Part shown: positions 15,960-59,047 of the stretch, in pieces
How the letters are laid out: each line of letters starts with the position of its first letter
Numbering within the stretch: the stretch's first letter is position 1
Assembly: GCA_021769885.1 (NCBI GenBank)
Contig: JAETSA010000002.1
Coordinates: 186,001 to 250,000, forward strand
DNA length: 64,000 nt
Direction: 5' to 3'
Source of the DNA: Bacillota bacterium
GTDB taxonomy: Bacteria > Bacillota > Clostridia > Oscillospirales > Acutalibacteraceae
Notes under the pieces: model-generated
Database searches by the model: none
Told to the model about the DNA's origin: nothing
The model's input: only the letters and a program-made list of their open reading frames with translations
Translations under genes and position numbers: made by a program

Positions 15960-16390
15960 AGACGGTAGGGCGGGAGCTTGCTCCCGCCGTTTATTTTTGC
16001 AGATGTCGACGGGCGGGCGATTCGTGAAGTGCCCCTACGGGCGTAGTGACGACCTTTGTGTCGTTCCGTTAGGGTTGCGCGAAATCCGACCGAGCTCGGG
16101 CGGATGAGGGTGCGGGTGTCCAGTGGACACCTCTAAGCGAAGCTTAGAAGCACCGACCGAGCCGGCAGGCGAGAACGGTGCCCCTACGGGTTCGGTTCAC
16201 CGTTTGGTTTATTCAGATTTTTACACTTGCTCGGGCGGGCGTGGAAACCCGCCCCTACAGGACTGCGGTTCACCGTTGGGGTTGTGCAAAAATTGACTGT
16301 GCTTGGGTCGTCGTGGACGCCGACCCCTACGGGGTTGCGTTTTGCCGTTGGGTTTATGCAGATTTTTGCGGGTGAGGCGTCCCTACTGAA
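15960..16390. repeat. Modular hairpin repeat region B
   Basis: Non-coding, between the convergent DUF7662-like gene and tuf. It contains hairpin units such as GGGCGGGAGCTTGCTCCCGCC (first twenty bases from 15965), GGGCGTGGAAACCCGCCC near 16236 and GTCGTCGTGGACGCCGAC near 16307, with linkers CGGTTCACCGTT and GGTTGTGCA. Nested inside one host hairpin is cassette 2 (16110-16174), which recurs in region F with different but still complementary hairpin arms. Confidence 0.8.
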
Positions 16391-33414: not shown

Positions 33415-34075
33415 ACATCCATCCTGTCATTCTGAGCGGAGCGAAGAATCGCACGCAGAACGAAGTGAATTTGGTGCACGCGTAGGGGTCGGCGTCCTCG
33501 ACGACCCGAAAAATTCGCAGAATGTAAATTTAATAGTCCACCTTTGTGTCGTTCCGCAAATTTCATCAGACTTCGGCGAGCGCGCAATACACGCCCCTAC
33601 GGGCTGCGTGTTATTTTACCACGCATCGTAGGGACGCCCTTGTGGCTGTCTGTTTTTCATAGCACAATGTGCATTGGATGCACGCGTAGGGACGGACATC
33701 CTTGTCCGTCCGCGGGCGGGTGCAGAGATGCACGCCCCTACGGGATTTTTGTCATTCTGAGCGCAGCGAAGAATCTCACACAGCACAACGTAAATTAGAT
33801 TCACGCGTAGGGACGGACGAAGATTTCCCTGTCAGGGAAAATGTCGCGAAGCGACAAAAGGGTAATGGCGTAGCCGTAACCCGTCCGTCCGCGGGCGATT
33901 CGTGAATCGCCCCTACAGGGTTGTGCATCACCGTTAGATTTCTGCAGAAATTTGACCGTACTCGGGCGGGCGTGGAAACCCGCCCCTACGGGTTTGTGTT
34001 TCGACGTTTGGTTGTTCTGATTTTTCACTTGCTCGGGCGCTTCGTGAAGCGCCCCTACGGGGTTCTGCGAAACAC
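33415..34075. repeat. Modular hairpin repeat region C, with two CATTCTGAGCG repeats and nested cassette 1
   Basis: Non-coding gap between the convergent GH2 and ABC permease genes. It holds two copies of the GTCATTCTGAGCG-AGCGAAGAATC repeat (33426 and 33751), units such as GGGCGATTCGTGAATCGCCC (33894), GGGCGTGGAAACCCGCCC (33966) and GGGCGCTTCGTGAAGCGCCC (34035), and cassette 1 at 33820-33880 enclosed by host arms GGACGGACG (33811-33819) and CGTCCGTCC (33882-33890). Confidence 0.8.
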
Positions 34076-34111
34076 AAAAAAGCAATCCGAAGCGAACAGG
34101 CTTGGATTGCT
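34076..34111 (-). terminator. Terminator of the HlyD/MacB-like operon
   Basis: Stem arms 34081-34088 and 34104-34111 with a T run on the minus strand. The plus strand also has a T run, so it may serve both directions. Confidence 0.8.
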
Positions 34112-34195
34112 TTTTTTGGATTGCTTTTTATTGTAATTATTTCGGATGTTTCGTTAGTTCTTCCGGGTGTTCCATTCGTTGTTTTGGCTGTTCCG

Positions 34196-35437
34196 TTAAT
34201 CTCTTCGCAGGGCTTCAATGGGGGGCATTTTGGCGGCTCTGCGGGCGGGGTATACGCCGAACACAACGCCGATTGCCGTTGAGAAGCCGACAGCAATCGC
34301 AACAGTAGTCGGTTTTACCTCTAAGGGAATATTCATAATATGCGACACGACTGCCGCGCCGAATACACCGATTAACAGACCAATCAAACCGCCGATTAAG
34401 CAGAGAATGATGGATTCAGTTAAGAACTGGAACAAAATGGTTGAGGTTTTTGCGCCGAGAGCTTTTCGAATACCGATTTCACGTGTGCGCTCGGTAATCG
34501 ACACAAGCATAATGTTCATCACGCCGATGCCGCCGACGACCAACGAAATGGCACTGACTGCCGCAATAAAGATCGTAAATATATTGATTACGGTATCGAG
34601 CAAATCGATATACGTTGCCATATTGGTAACCACATAGCAATCACGGTCACCGTTGTTGTGCCGCGCACGCAAACGGTTGAGTGCCGCACTGCCTGCCCCG
34701 TCTAAATCATTCTCGTCATTTGCCATAATGTAAATCGTATCAAAGCTGTCCAGAGAACCCATTACCTGGGAGGAAAGCGTAGAGGGCACCATCAGCATAC
34801 CGCCGGACATCTGCGCCCCGCCCATTGCCTGCATCGTATCCATCATCTCTTCGGAATCCATACCGAAAGAACCTGCAAGGTCAGTCACGCCGATAATCTT
34901 GATACGTGTAACCACATCATTATACGTAAAATTCACATATTGACCGACGACGTTGGCTTTGCCGAACAGTTGGCGCGCACTGGTTGCGTCAATCACGCCG
35001 ACAGGTCTGCCTGCGGTATACTCCGCCTCGTTAAAAAAGCGTCCGTACACGCAGTCACCGCTGGTTACAAACCGTAAGTCCGTATTGCCGCCGATGAGAA
35101 TGCCGATTGCACCTTTGTCCTCCACATTTAAAGCACCCATCGTCATCACATAGGGCGATACGTGCTCCACGGTATCGAGTGCCTTAATTGCCTCAATATC
35201 CTCCATGGTAATGTAATCGGACGGCTGTGCTTTATTGGAATCCACCATAATGTTAATCGCACTGTTGCCCATATCGCGAATCATACCGATAATGTAATCG
35301 CGGCTGCCGTTGCCGACGGTAATGATGGCAATGACCGAGGCGACACCAATGATAATGCCGAGCATTGTCAACAGCGAGCGCATTAAATTGGTTCGGATGC
35401 TGAAAATGGCTATGCGTATGTTTTCACGAATATCCAA
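34196..35437 (-). CDS. MacB-like ABC transporter permease (FtsX domain)
   Basis: MacB/YknZ-type permeases do not form a channel but move a periplasmic or extracytoplasmic domain by mechanotransmission. The 413-aa protein has one N-terminal membrane segment (about 20-42), a long outside MacB_PCD domain (about 45-275) and three C-terminal segments with the FtsX block IGVMNIMLVSITERTREIGI and the ending ARRAAKMPPIEALRRD. It lies 12 bases after the HlyD-like gene, as in the yknXYZ arrangement. The ATP-binding subunit normally encoded between them is absent from this window, so it must borrow one from elsewhere or be inactive. Confidence 0.9.
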   Translation of the reverse strand: MDIRENIRIAIFSIRTNLMRSLLTMLGIIIGVASVIAIITVGNGSRDYIIGMIRDMGNSAINIMVDSNKAQPSDYITMEDIEAIKALDTVEHVSPYVMTMGALNVEDKGAIGILIGGNTDLRFVTSGDCVYGRFFNEAEYTAGRPVGVIDATSARQLFGKANVVGQYVNFTYNDVVTRIKIIGVTDLAGSFGMDSEEMMDTMQAMGGAQMSGGMLMVPSTLSSQVMGSLDSFDTIYIMANDENDLDGAGSAALNRLRARHNNGDRDCYVVTNMATYIDLLDTVINIFTIFIAAVSAISLVVGGIGVMNIMLVSITERTREIGIRKALGAKTSTILFQFLTESIILCLIGGLIGLLIGVFGAAVVSHIMNIPLEVKPTTVAIAVGFSTAIGVVFGVYPARRAAKMPPIEALRRD

Positions 35438-35449
35438 TCTGCCACCGCC

Positions 35450-37036
35450 TTATTGCACAGCGATCTTGTCGCCGTCCTGCAAAGCGGTTTTCGGATTCAT
35501 AACAACCTGTTCCCCGCTCTTTATGCCGTCGAGCACCTCATAGACCGTATCCGACCCGATTCCCAAGGTGACTGCACGCTTGGAAACCGTTTTCTTCTCT
35601 GCATCGTAAACGAAAACATAATTCTCACCCGCATCGGTAAACACCGTTTCCACGGGGATGGTCAGCACGTTTTCAATCTTTTCGGTGTTAATCTGAATAT
35701 CGACATCAAAGCCAATGACAATTTTTTCATCGGGATTTTTGATTTTCACTTTGACAGGCGCACTGCTGGAGCTGCCTGTACTGCCGCCTGTCAGGGACGA
35801 GGTAATCGAGCTGATGTCAAGCCCCGAGGAAGCACTCGCGGTTGCGCTGACATAGCTGACTTCTGCATCATAAATTTTATCCAGCGAGGAAACCATAGCA
35901 GGCTGACCGACCTTTAAATCGAGCAAATCATATTTGCCGACGGTGAAGCTTGCGTAAAATTCACCGTAATTCTCCACCACGATGCCTGCTCCGACAGCCG
36001 TATCCGCACCGCTTGTAGAGGAGAAAATATCGGTAAGCGTTGCCGCAACATCACTGTTGCCCGACGCCATATTCATCAGCGCAGAAAGATCCATACCGCC
36101 CGACTGCTGTACCTTCGGCGTAAAAATCTCGCCCGCGACCAAATTCTGCTCGGTCACGATGCCGTCTGCCGCCGCAAACCAGCCGTTTTGGAGAGAATCC
36201 ACAAGGGCTTTATAGCTTTCATATTCTTTGGACTTTTGCTCCATAACGGATTTGTAAAGCTCCGTGACGGTTTCGTCGGTCTGGGCTTCATAAACAGACT
36301 TCTGCGCTTCCAAAGCCGACAGCTGCGCCTGCTTTTGTGCAAGCTCCGCCTTTTTAGCGGCAACGGAATTTCGCACCGCCGCTTCAACATCCACAGAACC
36401 GACCTGCTGCTGTACTGCGGTGACAATCTCTTGAATCTGCGCTTCGGTCATACCGCCCCCACGTAGCTGTTCCGCTAAAGCACGAAGCTCCGCCTCGGAA
36501 TACGTCGGCGTGTTGGGCGCGGTGACCTTGGTATTCTCCGCCGCCGCAATCTCCGACTCCAATGCGCTGATTTCACGCTGTAAGGTCGGGATTTGCGCAT
36601 TCACACTGCCAAGCTCCCGTTTTGCGTCGGACACGGAGTTTGCTGATTTTGTATAAGAGGCTTTTGCCTTGTCAAAAGCAGACTTGTAAGCATTTAACTG
36701 CGCCGTGAGTGTGGAAGTGTCAAAGGTCGCGAGCTGCTGCCCTGCCGTTACGCGGTCGCCTACAGAAACATAAACCGCTGTGACCCGAACGCCGCTTGCC
36801 GCATTAAAGCTTTCGGTACTGCCCGACTCCACCGTGCCTTGTGTATCAAAGGTGGACTGTATGTCGCCGATTTTCACCTCTGCAAGGCTGTAGGCGGGAA
36901 GCTCTTCCGGCTTAAAATTTGCATACAGCACAATGGCGACCAGTGCCGCCAGCACAACCGTTATGACAGCAACCGTAATTTTTTTCTTTCGGGGCCAATT
37001 CTTTGTTTTCTTAAACAAATCATCACCGCTTTCCAT
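35450..37036 (-). CDS. HlyD/YknX-like membrane-fusion (adaptor) protein
   Basis: Adaptors of this family link ABC permeases of the MacB/YknZ type to the cell wall side. The 528-aa protein has a basic N-terminus and one membrane anchor (about 22-43), a lipoyl half-motif near 70-105, a long coiled-coil hairpin (about 120-285) with an unusual insert containing YSEAELRALAEQLRGGGMTE, the second lipoyl half, and a C-terminal beta-barrel with a low-complexity Ser/Gly patch (about 415-430). It is encoded first in a two-gene operon with the permease. I see no clear ribosome site before the ATG at 37036, so the start is less sure. Confidence 0.88.
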   Translation of the reverse strand: MESGDDLFKKTKNWPRKKKITVAVITVVLAALVAIVLYANFKPEELPAYSLAEVKIGDIQSTFDTQGTVESGSTESFNAASGVRVTAVYVSVGDRVTAGQQLATFDTSTLTAQLNAYKSAFDKAKASYTKSANSVSDAKRELGSVNAQIPTLQREISALESEIAAAENTKVTAPNTPTYSEAELRALAEQLRGGGMTEAQIQEIVTAVQQQVGSVDVEAAVRNSVAAKKAELAQKQAQLSALEAQKSVYEAQTDETVTELYKSVMEQKSKEYESYKALVDSLQNGWFAAADGIVTEQNLVAGEIFTPKVQQSGGMDLSALMNMASGNSDVAATLTDIFSSTSGADTAVGAGIVVENYGEFYASFTVGKYDLLDLKVGQPAMVSSLDKIYDAEVSYVSATASASSGLDISSITSSLTGGSTGSSSSAPVKVKIKNPDEKIVIGFDVDIQINTEKIENVLTIPVETVFTDAGENYVFVYDAEKKTVSKRAVTLGIGSDTVYEVLDGIKSGEQVVMNPKTALQDGDKIAVQ

Positions 37037-37148
37037 TCAACAAGAGTATTTCAAAAATAAAACAGACTAATTGTATAATATTTTCGCGCAGATTGCCATA
37101 TATTTTTGTAAAGAAAATATGAATAAAACATTAACAGGAAGAGGATTT

Positions 37149-37670
37149 ATGAAAATTATGAAGCGAATTACCGCCGTACTGCTGTTTATCTGCGTTTTGC
37201 TGTGCGGATGCACAAAGCAAAGAAATATGGATCACGCCGAATTTTGCAAACGGCTGAACGCCTTACAGCAGAGCGAAACACTCTCGGCAGAGGCGTTTTT
37301 CAAAGAGAACACACCGAACACGAATGAATTAAACACTTCCCTGCCGTTTGGCGACGGCGAAACCGCACTTTTAACGCTGACCACAGACACGGCAGGCACG
37401 GTAACGGCTTTTCAGCTGACCGCCGTCAGTTCCGATATGCAAAACACGCCTGAAGCCTTCGGGGCATTGTATGAAACCTACTTACAGCTTGTGACGGTTT
37501 TAACGGTTCACGAAAGCACCGAGGACAGCGAAGTGCTCGTACAAGAAGCCGGTATTTTACCCGAAAGCCTCGGATTCACCGATTTCGGCTTCGTCGGTGA
37601 GGCAAACGGTCACCGATTTTCTGTTTTTTCGGGCGAAATGTATATTTCTATGTTTTGTGAACGGGTTTAA
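37149..37670 (+). CDS. Hypothetical lipoprotein
   Basis: A 173-aa protein with a lipoprotein signal peptide: basic MKIMKR, hydrophobic core and lipobox LLCGC with Cys19 or Cys20 region as the lipid site. I do not recognise the mature part, which looks like a compact alpha/beta domain without repeats. AGAGG precedes the ATG at 37149. It is transcribed away from the HlyD-like gene and converges on the patatin gene so tightly that both stop codons share the bases TTAA at 37667-37670. Its role is unknown. Confidence 0.75.
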   Translation: MKIMKRITAVLLFICVLLCGCTKQRNMDHAEFCKRLNALQQSETLSAEAFFKENTPNTNELNTSLPFGDGETALLTLTTDTAGTVTAFQLTAVSSDMQNTPEAFGALYETYLQLVTVLTVHESTEDSEVLVQEAGILPESLGFTDFGFVGEANGHRFSVFSGEMYISMFCERV

Positions 37671-38803
37671 TTTCGCGTCGTGCGTTTTGCCGGACTGTGT
37701 GCCGTTCTGAACAAATCGAGTGCCGCGGCGGCTTCACTCAGCTTTGCCGCTTTGCGCGGCGTCCGAATCTTTTTAACAATCTCCTCCGATGCTTTTTCGA
37801 GAATCGGCTTTGCGACTTTTAAAATCGGATTTTCGGCAGACTCCTTACGCTCGGCTTCCGCCGTTTCCTCGGCGGCAACTAAGGCGCGCATAAATTTGTG
37901 ATGCGTATACACGGTCAGCCGTTCCACACCGTACTGCGCGGCGAGAATCTCCAATTCCGATACCGCCTTGTAGCCGTATTTTTGCTGCATCAGTTTGTAT
38001 TCCTTCGGCTGGAAATAATAGTTTTGTCCGCTCAAAAGTCCGAAAGCCTTTTTGGTATCCAAATAACCCATTTGCATACGCTTTTCGGTCATAGCTTTAT
38101 CAAATTCAAAGGATTCTCCCAATTCTTTCGGGTCATTCGGGCGGATATAGATGATATCCGCGCAGGAAAGGTCATCCTTGTGCCCGATGCCCTTCATATT
38201 GGAAATATCCACCACAATAAACCGATTGATGCCGCGCTGACGGAGCATTCGGACAGGCGTATTGTCATACACGCCGCCGTCCAAATATTTCGCGCCGTCG
38301 GGACTTTGGTTGTGAAGCCCCGGAAAACGGGCGGACAGCATCAAATAATCCACCAACAACCCTTCCTGCATATCCTCGACAAACAGTTCAACCGGTTTTA
38401 AGGAAGAAAGCTGAAAGGTCACAAGCCCGAGCGGAATGCCCGACGCACGCACTTTTTCTTCATCGACATATTTTGCGACCAGATTGCGCGCAGGGGTTAC
38501 ATCGACCCCGCCGTTTTTGATGACCTCGTGAAAAATCTGCGGCAGATTTGAAAAGCTGAACAGATTTTCGGGAGCTTTCAGCTGGGCTTCCATTTGGATG
38601 CCGTCTTTCACCTCAATACTGCTCCACAGCTCAACGGTGCGGTCAAAATCGCCCTGCGCAATCAGCGCACCGTTGATTGCGCCGATGGATGCACCCGCAA
38701 TCATTTCAATATCTACGCCGATTTCACGCATCGCTTTCCAGGCACCGATTTGATAAGCGCCTTTCGCGCCGCCGCCTGCCAAAACCAAACCGTAAGGTCT
38801 CAT
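37667..38803 (-). CDS. Patatin-like phospholipase
   Basis: Patatin-type acyl hydrolases use a Ser-Asp dyad to cut fatty acids from phospholipids. The 378-aa protein has the oxyanion loop GGGAKG (10-15), the nucleophile elbow GASIG with Ser39, and the catalytic Asp in YLDGGVYDN. A C-terminal helical tail rich in Lys/Arg (from about 330) is extra. The start at 38803 has AAGGAG eleven bases before it. The frame continues open upstream, but that stretch translates repeat region D and should be left out. No signal peptide, so it probably acts from the cytoplasmic face. Confidence 0.9.
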   Translation of the reverse strand: MRPYGLVLAGGGAKGAYQIGAWKAMREIGVDIEMIAGASIGAINGALIAQGDFDRTVELWSSIEVKDGIQMEAQLKAPENLFSFSNLPQIFHEVIKNGGVDVTPARNLVAKYVDEEKVRASGIPLGLVTFQLSSLKPVELFVEDMQEGLLVDYLMLSARFPGLHNQSPDGAKYLDGGVYDNTPVRMLRQRGINRFIVVDISNMKGIGHKDDLSCADIIYIRPNDPKELGESFEFDKAMTEKRMQMGYLDTKKAFGLLSGQNYYFQPKEYKLMQQKYGYKAVSELEILAAQYGVERLTVYTHHKFMRALVAAEETAEAERKESAENPILKVAKPILEKASEEIVKKIRTPRKAAKLSEAAAALDLFRTAHSPAKRTTRN

Positions 38804-38839
38804 ATTTTGAAATGCTCCTTTCATAGGAAATATAAAAAA

Positions 38840-39290
38840 GATGTCGAGTAGTTGGGTCGTGATGACCCCTACGGGGTTGGTGCGTAGGGCGGGGGCTTGT
38901 CCCCGCCGTTTGTTTGCGTTGATTTTGCGGGCGCAACGCGCAAGCGCCCCTCGGGGTTTGTGCCGCGCCGTTGGGATTGTGCAAAATCCAACCTTGCTCG
39001 GGGCGCCAAGTCGGCGCCCCCTACGGGCGTAGGGAACAGCCTCTGTGTTGTTCCGCAAAATTCATCAGACTTTATCGGGCGGATGAGGTTACGGCTTCGC
39101 CATTACCCTTTTGTCGCTTCGCGACATTTCCCCTAATAGGGGAATCTTCATCCGCCCCTACGAATTGCAAACGCCTGTCATTCTGAGCCGTAAGGCGAAG
39201 AATCTCTTTTTGTGCAGGGCTCGTTCTGACGGAGATCCTTCGCTATCGCGCAGGATGACAGTACGGGCGGGCGTGGAAATCCGCCCATAT
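38840..39290. repeat. Modular hairpin repeat region D with nested cassette 1
   Basis: Non-coding, upstream of the patatin gene and downstream of the Rrf2 gene. Units include a GGGCGGGGGCTTGTCCCCGCC hairpin (first twenty bases counted from 38887), GGGGCGCCAAGTCGGCGCCCC-type arms near 38999, and a CATTCTGAGC repeat at 39180. Cassette 1 lies at 39087-39147 inside host arms GGGCGGATGA (39077-39086) and TCATCCGCCC (39148-39157), in the opposite orientation to the copy in region C. It is the only region of the six not in a convergent gap. Confidence 0.8.
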
Positions 39291-39298
39291 GAAGGTAT

Positions 39299-53344: not shown

Positions 53345-54170
53345 TTTTGTCGTTCTGATGTTTTGCATTCTGCGCGATAGCGAAGAATCTCACATAGCAC
53401 AACGTGAATTATATAATCGGTAGGGCGGGGTGCGGGTCTCCAGTGGAGACCTCTGCATACGGAAGTATGCAGAAGCACCGACCGAGCCGGCAGGCGAGAC
53501 CTTGCTCCCGCCGCAGGATCCCACACAGAACAGCGTGAATTTGATTCCCGCGTAGTGGCGGGCTTCCACGCCCGCCATTTGGACTGTGCAAAATTCGACC
53601 GTCCGCGGGCGAACGCAGTTCGCCCCTACGAGTGTAGGGAACAACCTCTGTGTTGTTCCGTGGAGTTTCATCTGACTTTACGGGGCGCCGAGGTCGTCGC
53701 CCCCTACGGGTTGCAGTTCACCGTTAAGGTTTCATAAAAACCAACCGTGCTCGGGCGGGCGTGGAAACCCGCCCCTACGAAGGTTGCGCTTCGCCGTTGT
53801 GTTGTTCTGATTTTGCGGGCGCTTCGTGAAGCACCCCTACGGGTGTAGGGCGGGGGCTTGCTCCCGCCGTTTTTTCGTTCGCGCGGGCGGATGAAGACAT
53901 CCGCCCCTACGATGTAGGGAACAACCTCTGTGTTGTTCCGTAAATTTTGCACAGCAGAAATTCGGTTTGCGCGTAGAGAATGGGCATTGCCCATTCCGCG
54001 GGTGCTTCGTGAAGCGCCCCTACACGATTGGTGTGTTGTTCTGCGCACCGTAGGGACAGCCCGGGCTCGCTGTCCGCAGGCGAACACAGTTCGCCCCTAC
54101 GAAGTGTGCTTCACCGTTTGGTGGTTCTGATTTTACGGGCGATTCGTGAATCGCCCCTACGATTGACATG
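53345..54170. repeat. Modular hairpin repeat region F with nested cassette 2
   Basis: The longest of the six regions, in the convergent gap between the kinase and queH genes. It begins with a worn CATTCTG-AGCGAAGAATC repeat (53365). Cassette 2 lies at 53430-53499 inside a GGGCGGG/CCCGCC host hairpin. Later units include GGGCGAACGCAGTTCGCCCC (53608), GGGCGGATGAAGACATCCGC (53885), GGGCGTGGAAACCCGCCC (53756) and GGGCGATTCGTGAATCGCCC (54137). No gene is seen. Confidence 0.82.
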
Positions 54171-58832: not shown

Positions 58833-59038
58833 ATATTGCTGCGCAATATGAAAGAATCCTTACGGATTGTGAAATTTTCTGCTTCGCAGAAAGTGAAATA
58901 AGAACCTGACTTCGTCAGAACCTTGTTATTCGTTACACTCATAATAAAATTCGTTCTATCATATGCCGCAGGCATATTTCACATTTGCGAAGCAAATATT
59001 TCATATCAAAGATATTTCACTCGTTCCGTAAGGAACGA
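58833..59038. repeat. Array of eight short hairpins spaced by TTTCA/TGAAA
   Basis: Eight different small palindromes follow one another: 58833-58849, 58855-58868, 58876-58892, 58906-58918, 58961-58977, 58983-58997, 59003-59015 and 59021-59038. Arms differ in every case (for example ATTTGC-GAA-GCAAAT and TCGTTCC-GTAA-GGAACGA), while most spacers are forms of GTGAAAT or ATTTCA. It is non-coding and lies between the lysozyme gene and tRNA-Val. Confidence 0.8.
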
Positions 59039-59047
59039 ATTTCATTG

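Follow-up and report, generated by a model that had tools for sequence, protein, structure and literature searches.

Known palindromic repeats and a cassette in their loops

Repetitive extragenic palindromes (REPs) rank with the smallest bacterial DNAs to which mobility is ascribed, and small non-coding repeats of modular and sometimes nested build also include the BOX elements, the small dispersed repeats of cyanobacteria and the miniature inverted-repeat transposable elements (MITEs). The loop of a REP can itself be entered by an insertion sequence (IS), as it is by IS1397. The subject of this report is a non-coding sequence of 61 nt, cassette 1, which occupies the loops of two different REPs in a 64,000-nt stretch (hereafter the window; contig JAETSA010000002.1, positions 186,001 to 250,000) of a draft Clostridia-type genome of 2.32 Mb. 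The many copies found at hairpin tips suggest that very small elements nest inside other small elements.

Which of the described systems come closest? For the GTAG-tagged REPs and their REPtrons, or REP-associated tyrosine transposases (RAYTs), the features in common are a GTAG foot, stems of mostly 6-9 bp, short loops, high copy number, dimers and repeat-specific RAYTs; by contrast, the parts of the two reports consulted describe no conserved multi-hairpin loop cassette common to several REP classes (PMC3733652; PMC6006769). A word search of the main text of PMC3733652 gave zero occurrences of Firmicutes and zero of Clostridi. The REP-targeting IS elements IS1397, ISKpn1, IS621 and ISPpu9, as far as the consulted part of PMC1525189 describes them, resemble the present case in that a mobile element has a REP palindrome as its target, but they carry a transposase, whereas cassette 1 is non-coding. 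In the A. variabilis GTAG-15 dimers and in T. roseum GTAG-23 a palindrome likewise lies within a palindrome; the REP, however, is the inner element there, according to the consulted part of PMC3733652, and the outer one here. REP hosts, REPs inside RAYT genes, REP-targeting IS elements and REPs nested in palindromes are already known; a REP-loop cassette of the present kind is described nowhere in the literature searched, which comprised titles, the starts of abstracts and parts of the REP and RAYT papers.

We consider it probable that two layers are superimposed, in which REPs serve as hosts and cassette 1, together with a second cassette described below, represents non-autonomous mini-elements that enter the REP hairpin at its apex and subsequently spread. 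If this is true, there would be a second tier beyond REPs, formed by elements of about 60 nt that live in the loops of REPs, retain a fold of their own and move from one REP class to another. Such a tier would offer a test of the REP parts that RAYTs require, a means to track REP class switching and a starting point in the search for an enzyme able to insert DNA at the tips of hairpins, and the cassettes may explain part of the mosaic intergenic repeats in Clostridia genomes.

Host hairpins of cassette 1

A whole-genome search recovered at least 41 copies of cassette 1 at 86-100% identity (a lower bound, 40 of 72 candidates having been scored). These 41 listed copies fall into four main host arm classes: A, with arms GGGCGGATG/CATCCGCCC (16 copies); C, of the GGCGGG/CCCGCC type (10, including one GGCGCG/CGCGCC); B, with GGACGGACG/CGTCCGTCC (7); and D, with GGGTCGGCG/CGACGACCC (6); for the remaining 2 the class is not clear. 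GTAG stands no more than 18 nt 5' of the cassette in 40 of them, the exception (L030) having GTCG instead and a right side that ends at the contig end, and CTAC is found in the right flank of none. In a 464-kb sample of the genome (the window plus 20 further stretches), 0.12% of the sequence falls within the loops of GTAGGG hairpins of the short-loop kind, which puts this location beyond chance. A further five cassette cores, none of them counted in the 41, are present in the same sample; hairpin 2 is longer in three of these, and the third hairpin differs in two. The two arms of each host pair over 8.34 bp on average, and over at least 8 bp in 26 of the copies; arms swapped within a class pair over 8.76 bp, those swapped between classes over 5.36 bp.

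It is well supported that the host hairpins are REP elements, mostly palindromes of 8-10 bp with a GTAG foot, a loop of 2-6 nt and many arm classes. The GTAG tetranucleotide lies at the palindrome foot of the 40 filled copies just mentioned and also of empty hairpins, and copy number is high: the 303 GTAGGG sites of the sample yielded 271 hairpins under lenient criteria, for which reason only the 175 with short loops (at most 10 nt) were used, all classes pooled, and these display 43 different 7-nt arm starts.

The initial annotation of the window had reported the same 61-nt sequence at two sites, with coordinates that proved right to within one base, and had placed the copies in the loops of two different hairpins, which belong to class B (copy 1) and class A (copy 2). 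Its opposite orientations concern the strand only, since the host hairpin is inverted along with the cassette and both copies have the same orientation to the foot; with 40 of 41 copies oriented alike to GTAG, the two orientations do not represent independent events. The hosts, too, belong to a named kind, the GTAG-tagged REPs with RAYT transposases. Confinement to a single type of host hairpin, by which the nested-module idea was to have failed, is not what the genome-wide search shows: to the four main classes are added other arms in relatives.

Empty and filled REPs

Each of the four classes has empty as well as filled versions, and the position of the junction in the apex is constant. Pattern searches found 23 empty REPs of class A, 15 of B, 20 of C and 10 of D; the filled REPs caught by the arm patterns in this comparison numbered 15, 4, 8 and 5, respectively. 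As judged by eye, in each class the cassette takes the place of two apex bases (CC, TC or GC), and the bases thereafter are kept. In the window, the empty class-B REP and copy 1 are 85% identical over 40 nt through the start of the left arm, and GCGGGCG follows both. Six pairs of copies in hosts of different class, B with C or A with C, have identical 59-nt cassettes, and it is therefore unlikely that all filled classes arose from one ancestral filled REP through arm drift. At the same time, cassette subtype tracks host class: the nearest neighbour belongs to the same class at a rate of 0.69 versus 0.28 after shuffling, and 0 of 2000 shuffles came as high (38 of the 41 copies, leaving out 2 of unclear class and 1 of different length).

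What do the corresponding sites look like in relatives? Among four relatives viewed at the site of copy 2, two keep the Rrf2-like/patatin-like gene pair (L269 and L270 did not show it), and the 495-nt gap that holds an array and copy 2 here measures 57 nt in G016 and 21 nt in G007, with no repeat in either. Its absence between the same genes in these two relatives shows the array at copy 2 to be lineage-specific; it does not show that the cassette arrived by itself. The comparison at copy 1, where the neighbouring genes are not the same, is informative only in part.

Cassette 2 and the RAYT genes

A second cassette of about 70 nt, unrelated to cassette 1 in sequence, also resides in REP loops. 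Its 19 copies in the 464-kb sample have GTAG on the left (11), CTAC on the right (7) or neither (1), so that both orientations to the foot occur, and they lie in at least five arm classes, including A, D, GGGGCGACG and GGGTCGCTG (arms read by eye); 2-3 of the 19 have arms of two classes. Two hairpins of cassette 2 differ between its window copies by changes on both arms together, TCTAAGC/GCTTAGA versus TCTGCATAC/GTATGCAGA and GGTGTCC/GGACACC versus GGTCTCC/GGAGACC.

Seven RAYT loci (L254-L260) were found in the genome; the 12 rows of the search include parts of one gene, an antisense echo and weak matches, and the genes listed as loci L250-L253 are identical with L260, L256, L254 and L257. Each of the seven matches NCBIfam REP_Tyr_transpos, although only L259 (81.2 bits) exceeds the 80-bit cut-off; L260, L254, L255 and L257 score below it at 48-69 bits, and the broken genes L256 and L258 match piecewise, with fragments at 18-53 bits. 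Pfam Y1_Tnp lies above its cut-off in two of four RAYT proteins, and the HxH and Y..N(P) motifs are present in ten aligned RAYT proteins, of which L096 is incomplete at the end.

GTAG hairpins lie within the coding region at all seven loci (Table 1). Several REP arm classes match a predicted RAYT gene of the HUH/Y1 transposase type with that hairpin inside it; host classes B (L259) and C (L257) are among them, and for A and D no such gene was found. At five loci the internal hairpins form an inverted pair with a spacing of 183-199 bp; in L256 the presence of cassette 2 widens this to 261 bp, its copy (L256:1412-1502) lying between the 9-bp arms GGGGCGATG/CATCGCCCC of the REP inside the gene, where a TAA within the cassette terminates the RAYT reading frame. 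The equivalent position at the six other loci holds an empty REP in five and none in L260. Among 12 RAYT loci viewed in relatives, L096, L097, L099 and L100 have the inverted pair, L095 has two hairpins, one of them at the frame edge, and L090 has one. In-frame REPs inside the gene have been reported for TnpAREP subclass 2.4, which the genes described here resemble in this respect, but the insertions in the consulted part of that report generally fall between HUH and Y, whereas here one of each pair precedes HUH (PMC6006769). The REP class inside the RAYT gene differs in nearly every gene, and several of these classes correspond to ones dispersed in the genome.

Could it be that only REPs move? 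The cassette would then be a passenger whose entry into a REP took place once or on a few occasions; filled REPs would be mobilised whole, and new arm classes would come from compensatory changes in the arms or from arms traded between filled REPs and empty ones. Such a history is consistent with the tracking of class by cassette subtype, with the one orientation of 40 of the 41 copies and with the arms of two classes in some copies of cassette 2; it does not readily accommodate identical 59-nt cassettes flanked by arms of different classes, the reversed orientation relative to the foot that is seen elsewhere than in this genome and in cassette 2, or the presence of cassette 2 within a RAYT-internal REP, and we regard it as unlikely.

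Fold and covariation of cassette 1

Cassette 1 consists of hairpin 1 (TTCCCC/GGGGAA), hairpin 2 (TGTCGC/GCGACA) and hairpin 3, with the host stem closing a multi-branched junction, and the fold of the two window copies has z values of -6.7 and -6.9. Between these copies one hairpin had been said to change on both arms, and it does so by one T-A pair that becomes C-G, TTTCCCTGTCAGGGAAA in copy 1 versus TTCCCCTATTAGGGGAA in copy 2. A wider test of covariation, which had also been proposed, bears this out: two facing positions left free in the search pattern form Watson-Crick pairs of all four kinds in 108 of 109 contexts and A-C in one, contexts that, because copies within one genome are related, do not amount to 109 independent events. 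Across 62 distinct 40-nt cores (hand-picked from 119 unique ones, with other lengths, other registers and some others left out), 98.3% of cells pair in hairpins 1 and 2, versus 94.2% when shuffled and 42-60% when slid, and 40 cells are changed on both sides, versus 11.0 when shuffled.

By eye, the ends of cassette 1, AAGATTCC and GCCGTAAC, are not inverted copies of each other, and at the target two apex bases are replaced and none is duplicated. The cassette thus lacks the terminal inverted repeats and target-site duplications of a MITE and, at 61 nt, is too short for a gene, such as the transposase gene of an IS element. It differs from BOX elements, the cyanobacterial repeats and MITEs in that no terminal inverted repeats or target duplications were seen and in its site at the hairpin tip.

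The strong RNA fold and the covariation would also be expected of a structured RNA, regulatory or stabilising and under selection, whose closing stem is a REP by happenstance. Rfam, however, gave no match to the cassette, either for the window at gathering cut-offs or for copy 1 at E up to 1; there is no clear sense bias to the upstream gene, with 17 versus 13 of the 30 copies that have an upstream open reading frame (ORF; loci L001-L030, 32 copies, crude ORF calls); and the copy-2 array is absent between the same genes in two relatives. This explanation appears improbable to us.

Distribution outside this genome

Matches to cassette 1 at E of at most 0.01 are found in 17 of 98 genomes searched, this one included, and in 3 of 54 genera, and the genome collection contains its core in at least 109 places. 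Titles among the core matches listed are Clostridia, Clostridiales, Ruminococcus, Oscillospiraceae, Eubacterium, Pseudoflavonifractor, Lawsonibacter and similar, or unclassified bacteria; SVOB01000002.1 is among the listed core-bearing contigs. In genomes of the same genus (e.g. G011 and G033) the cassette resides in GTAG hairpins with other arms. At greater distance the hosts are varied: by pattern, GTAG lies on the left in 9 of the 109 listed contexts (background 3.1%) and CTAC on the right in 9 (background 5.4%), and 20 resemble a CTCC/GGAG repeat. An outer stem of at least 7 bp is formed in 30 of 45 contexts from the genome itself, versus 39% with swapped and 4% with shuffled flanks; the swapped-flank control runs too high, as many copies belong to one and the same class, and the arm-swap test by class given above was made for this reason. 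Nesting in hairpins is firmly established for this genome and less firmly for others.

A more far-reaching proposal, which we advance only tentatively, is that the cassettes exemplify a class of minute mobile elements (60-75 nt, without genes or terminal repeats) that target the hairpin tip rather than a sequence, are spread through Clostridia in REPs and other palindromic repeats, and are moved by a putative hairpin-tip recombinase. In some contigs titled Ruminococcus or Clostridia (L103, L111, L162, L164 and L175) the core lies nested within a repeat of the CTTCCC/GGGAAG type, which has a layout similar to that of the core itself. As to a phage origin, a scan of viral contigs with one 28-nt form of the core (TTTCCC type), the only form it covered, returned no exact match.

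How might the cassettes move?

In the two-layer reading favoured here, insertion is supported, and as to mechanism we infer enzymatic insertion of the cassette and continued mobility of filled REPs. Cassettes 1 and 2, both non-coding and multi-hairpin, would insert at the REP apex, whereupon the host stem would close a multi-branched structure; filled REPs would then spread via REP mobility or recombination among copies, which would result in class-linked cassette subtypes. Candidate movers between hosts would be a recombinase acting in trans or a RAYT acting on folded single strands. The nested-module interpretation that had been offered at the outset is thus retained in part: different self-complementary arms, arm pairing that is mostly held, covarying module hairpins and a second module alike all speak for it, whereas independent orientations, hosts of an unnamed kind and pairing kept everywhere are not supported.

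Several observations weigh against the two-layer reading. No strain pair was found with the same site both with and without cassette 1, and no transposase was found linked to the cassette. Host classes A and D, which account for 22 of the 41 copies, have no matching RAYT in this genome. Since group 3 TnpAREPs require the REP loop sequence for cleavage, according to the consulted part of PMC8266576, filled REPs may by analogy be poor RAYT substrates, and co-mobilisation would be less easy. An arm is lost or shortened in 3 of the 41 copies (the right arm is gone in L008 and L037, the left one shorter in L006), which, with a damaged arm in L224 and the cassette-2 copies whose arms are of two classes, are exceptions to the claim that pairing is kept. 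Outside this genome, a GTAG host is lacking in the copies viewed from G055, G001 and G002, and a crude test is weakly positive, an outer stem of at least 7 bp being formed in 36 of 143 contexts, versus 9% with swapped and 10% with shuffled flanks. Finally, column pairs with a double change are not in excess among the 62 cores (2 versus 2.0 in shuffles).

Would any dedicated enzyme be needed? Template switching during replication, or single-strand annealing, might copy loops between hairpins without one, and a cassette with no linked transposase, together with broken and mixed arms, is what such copying could leave behind. The same junction in four classes, the matching arms of most copies and the identical cassettes in hosts with differing arms argue the other way, and we deem this origin very improbable.

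Features of the window

The copies of both cassettes in the window, the REPs and arrays around them and the hairpins inside the RAYT genes are collected in Table 1; the product names of neighbouring genes were read from ORFs. Exact matches to the 13-nt core GTCGCGAAGCGAC in the window are confined to the two copies of cassette 1.

Table 1. Cassettes, REPs and repeat arrays of the window, and hairpins inside the RAYT genes of the genome
Feature	Position	Strand	Remarks
Filled class-B REP	33807..33890	+	GTAG foot 33807-33810, arms GGACGGACG/CGTCCGTCC, cassette 1 in loop
Host arms of copy 1	33811-33819; 33882-33890	+	GGACGGACG; CGTCCGTCC
Cassette 1, copy 1	33820..33880	+	61 nt, three hairpins, AAGATTT...GTAAC
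Filled class-A REP	39077..39161	-	GTAG foot 39158-39161, arms GGGCGGATG/CATCCGCCC, cassette 1 in loop
Host arms of copy 2	39149-39157; 39077-39085	-	
Cassette 1, copy 2	39088..39148	-	61 nt
Empty class-B REP	33686..33711	+	GTAGGGACGGACATCCTTGTCCGTCC
Empty class-D REP	33482..33507	+	GTAGGGGTCGGCGTCCTCGACGACCC
Empty class-A REP	53885..53910	-	GGGCGGATGAAGACATCCGCCCCTAC as read on plus strand
Repeat array with copy 1	33425..34061	.	Between beta-galactosidase-like gene (+) and ABC permease-like gene (-)
REP array with copy 2, in 495-nt gap	38804..39298	.	Between Rrf2-like and patatin-like genes
Cassette-2 copy, part	16146..16174	-	REP with arms of two classes; copy noted at 16099-16173
Second cassette-2 copy, part	53471..53499	-	CTAC on right; copy noted at 53424-53498
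RAYT gene L254, internal hairpin			GGGGCGACGA, plus one GGGCGAAC near start
RAYT gene L255, internal hairpin			GGGCGCGC
RAYT gene L256, internal hairpin			GGGACGATG
RAYT gene L257, internal hairpin			GGGCGGGGGC, host class C
RAYT gene L258, internal hairpin			GGGCGAAC
RAYT gene L259, internal hairpin			GGACGGACG, host class B
RAYT gene L260, internal hairpin			GGAACGACC, three hairpins

A further dispersed repeat (TGTCATTCTGAGC...GCGAAGAATC and the sequence that follows) is interwoven with the REP arrays at window positions 33425-33475, 33750-33800 and 53379-53414. Elsewhere in the window, positions 58951-59047, adjoining a tRNA-Val gene, match the Gut-1 RNA of Rfam at 63 bits.

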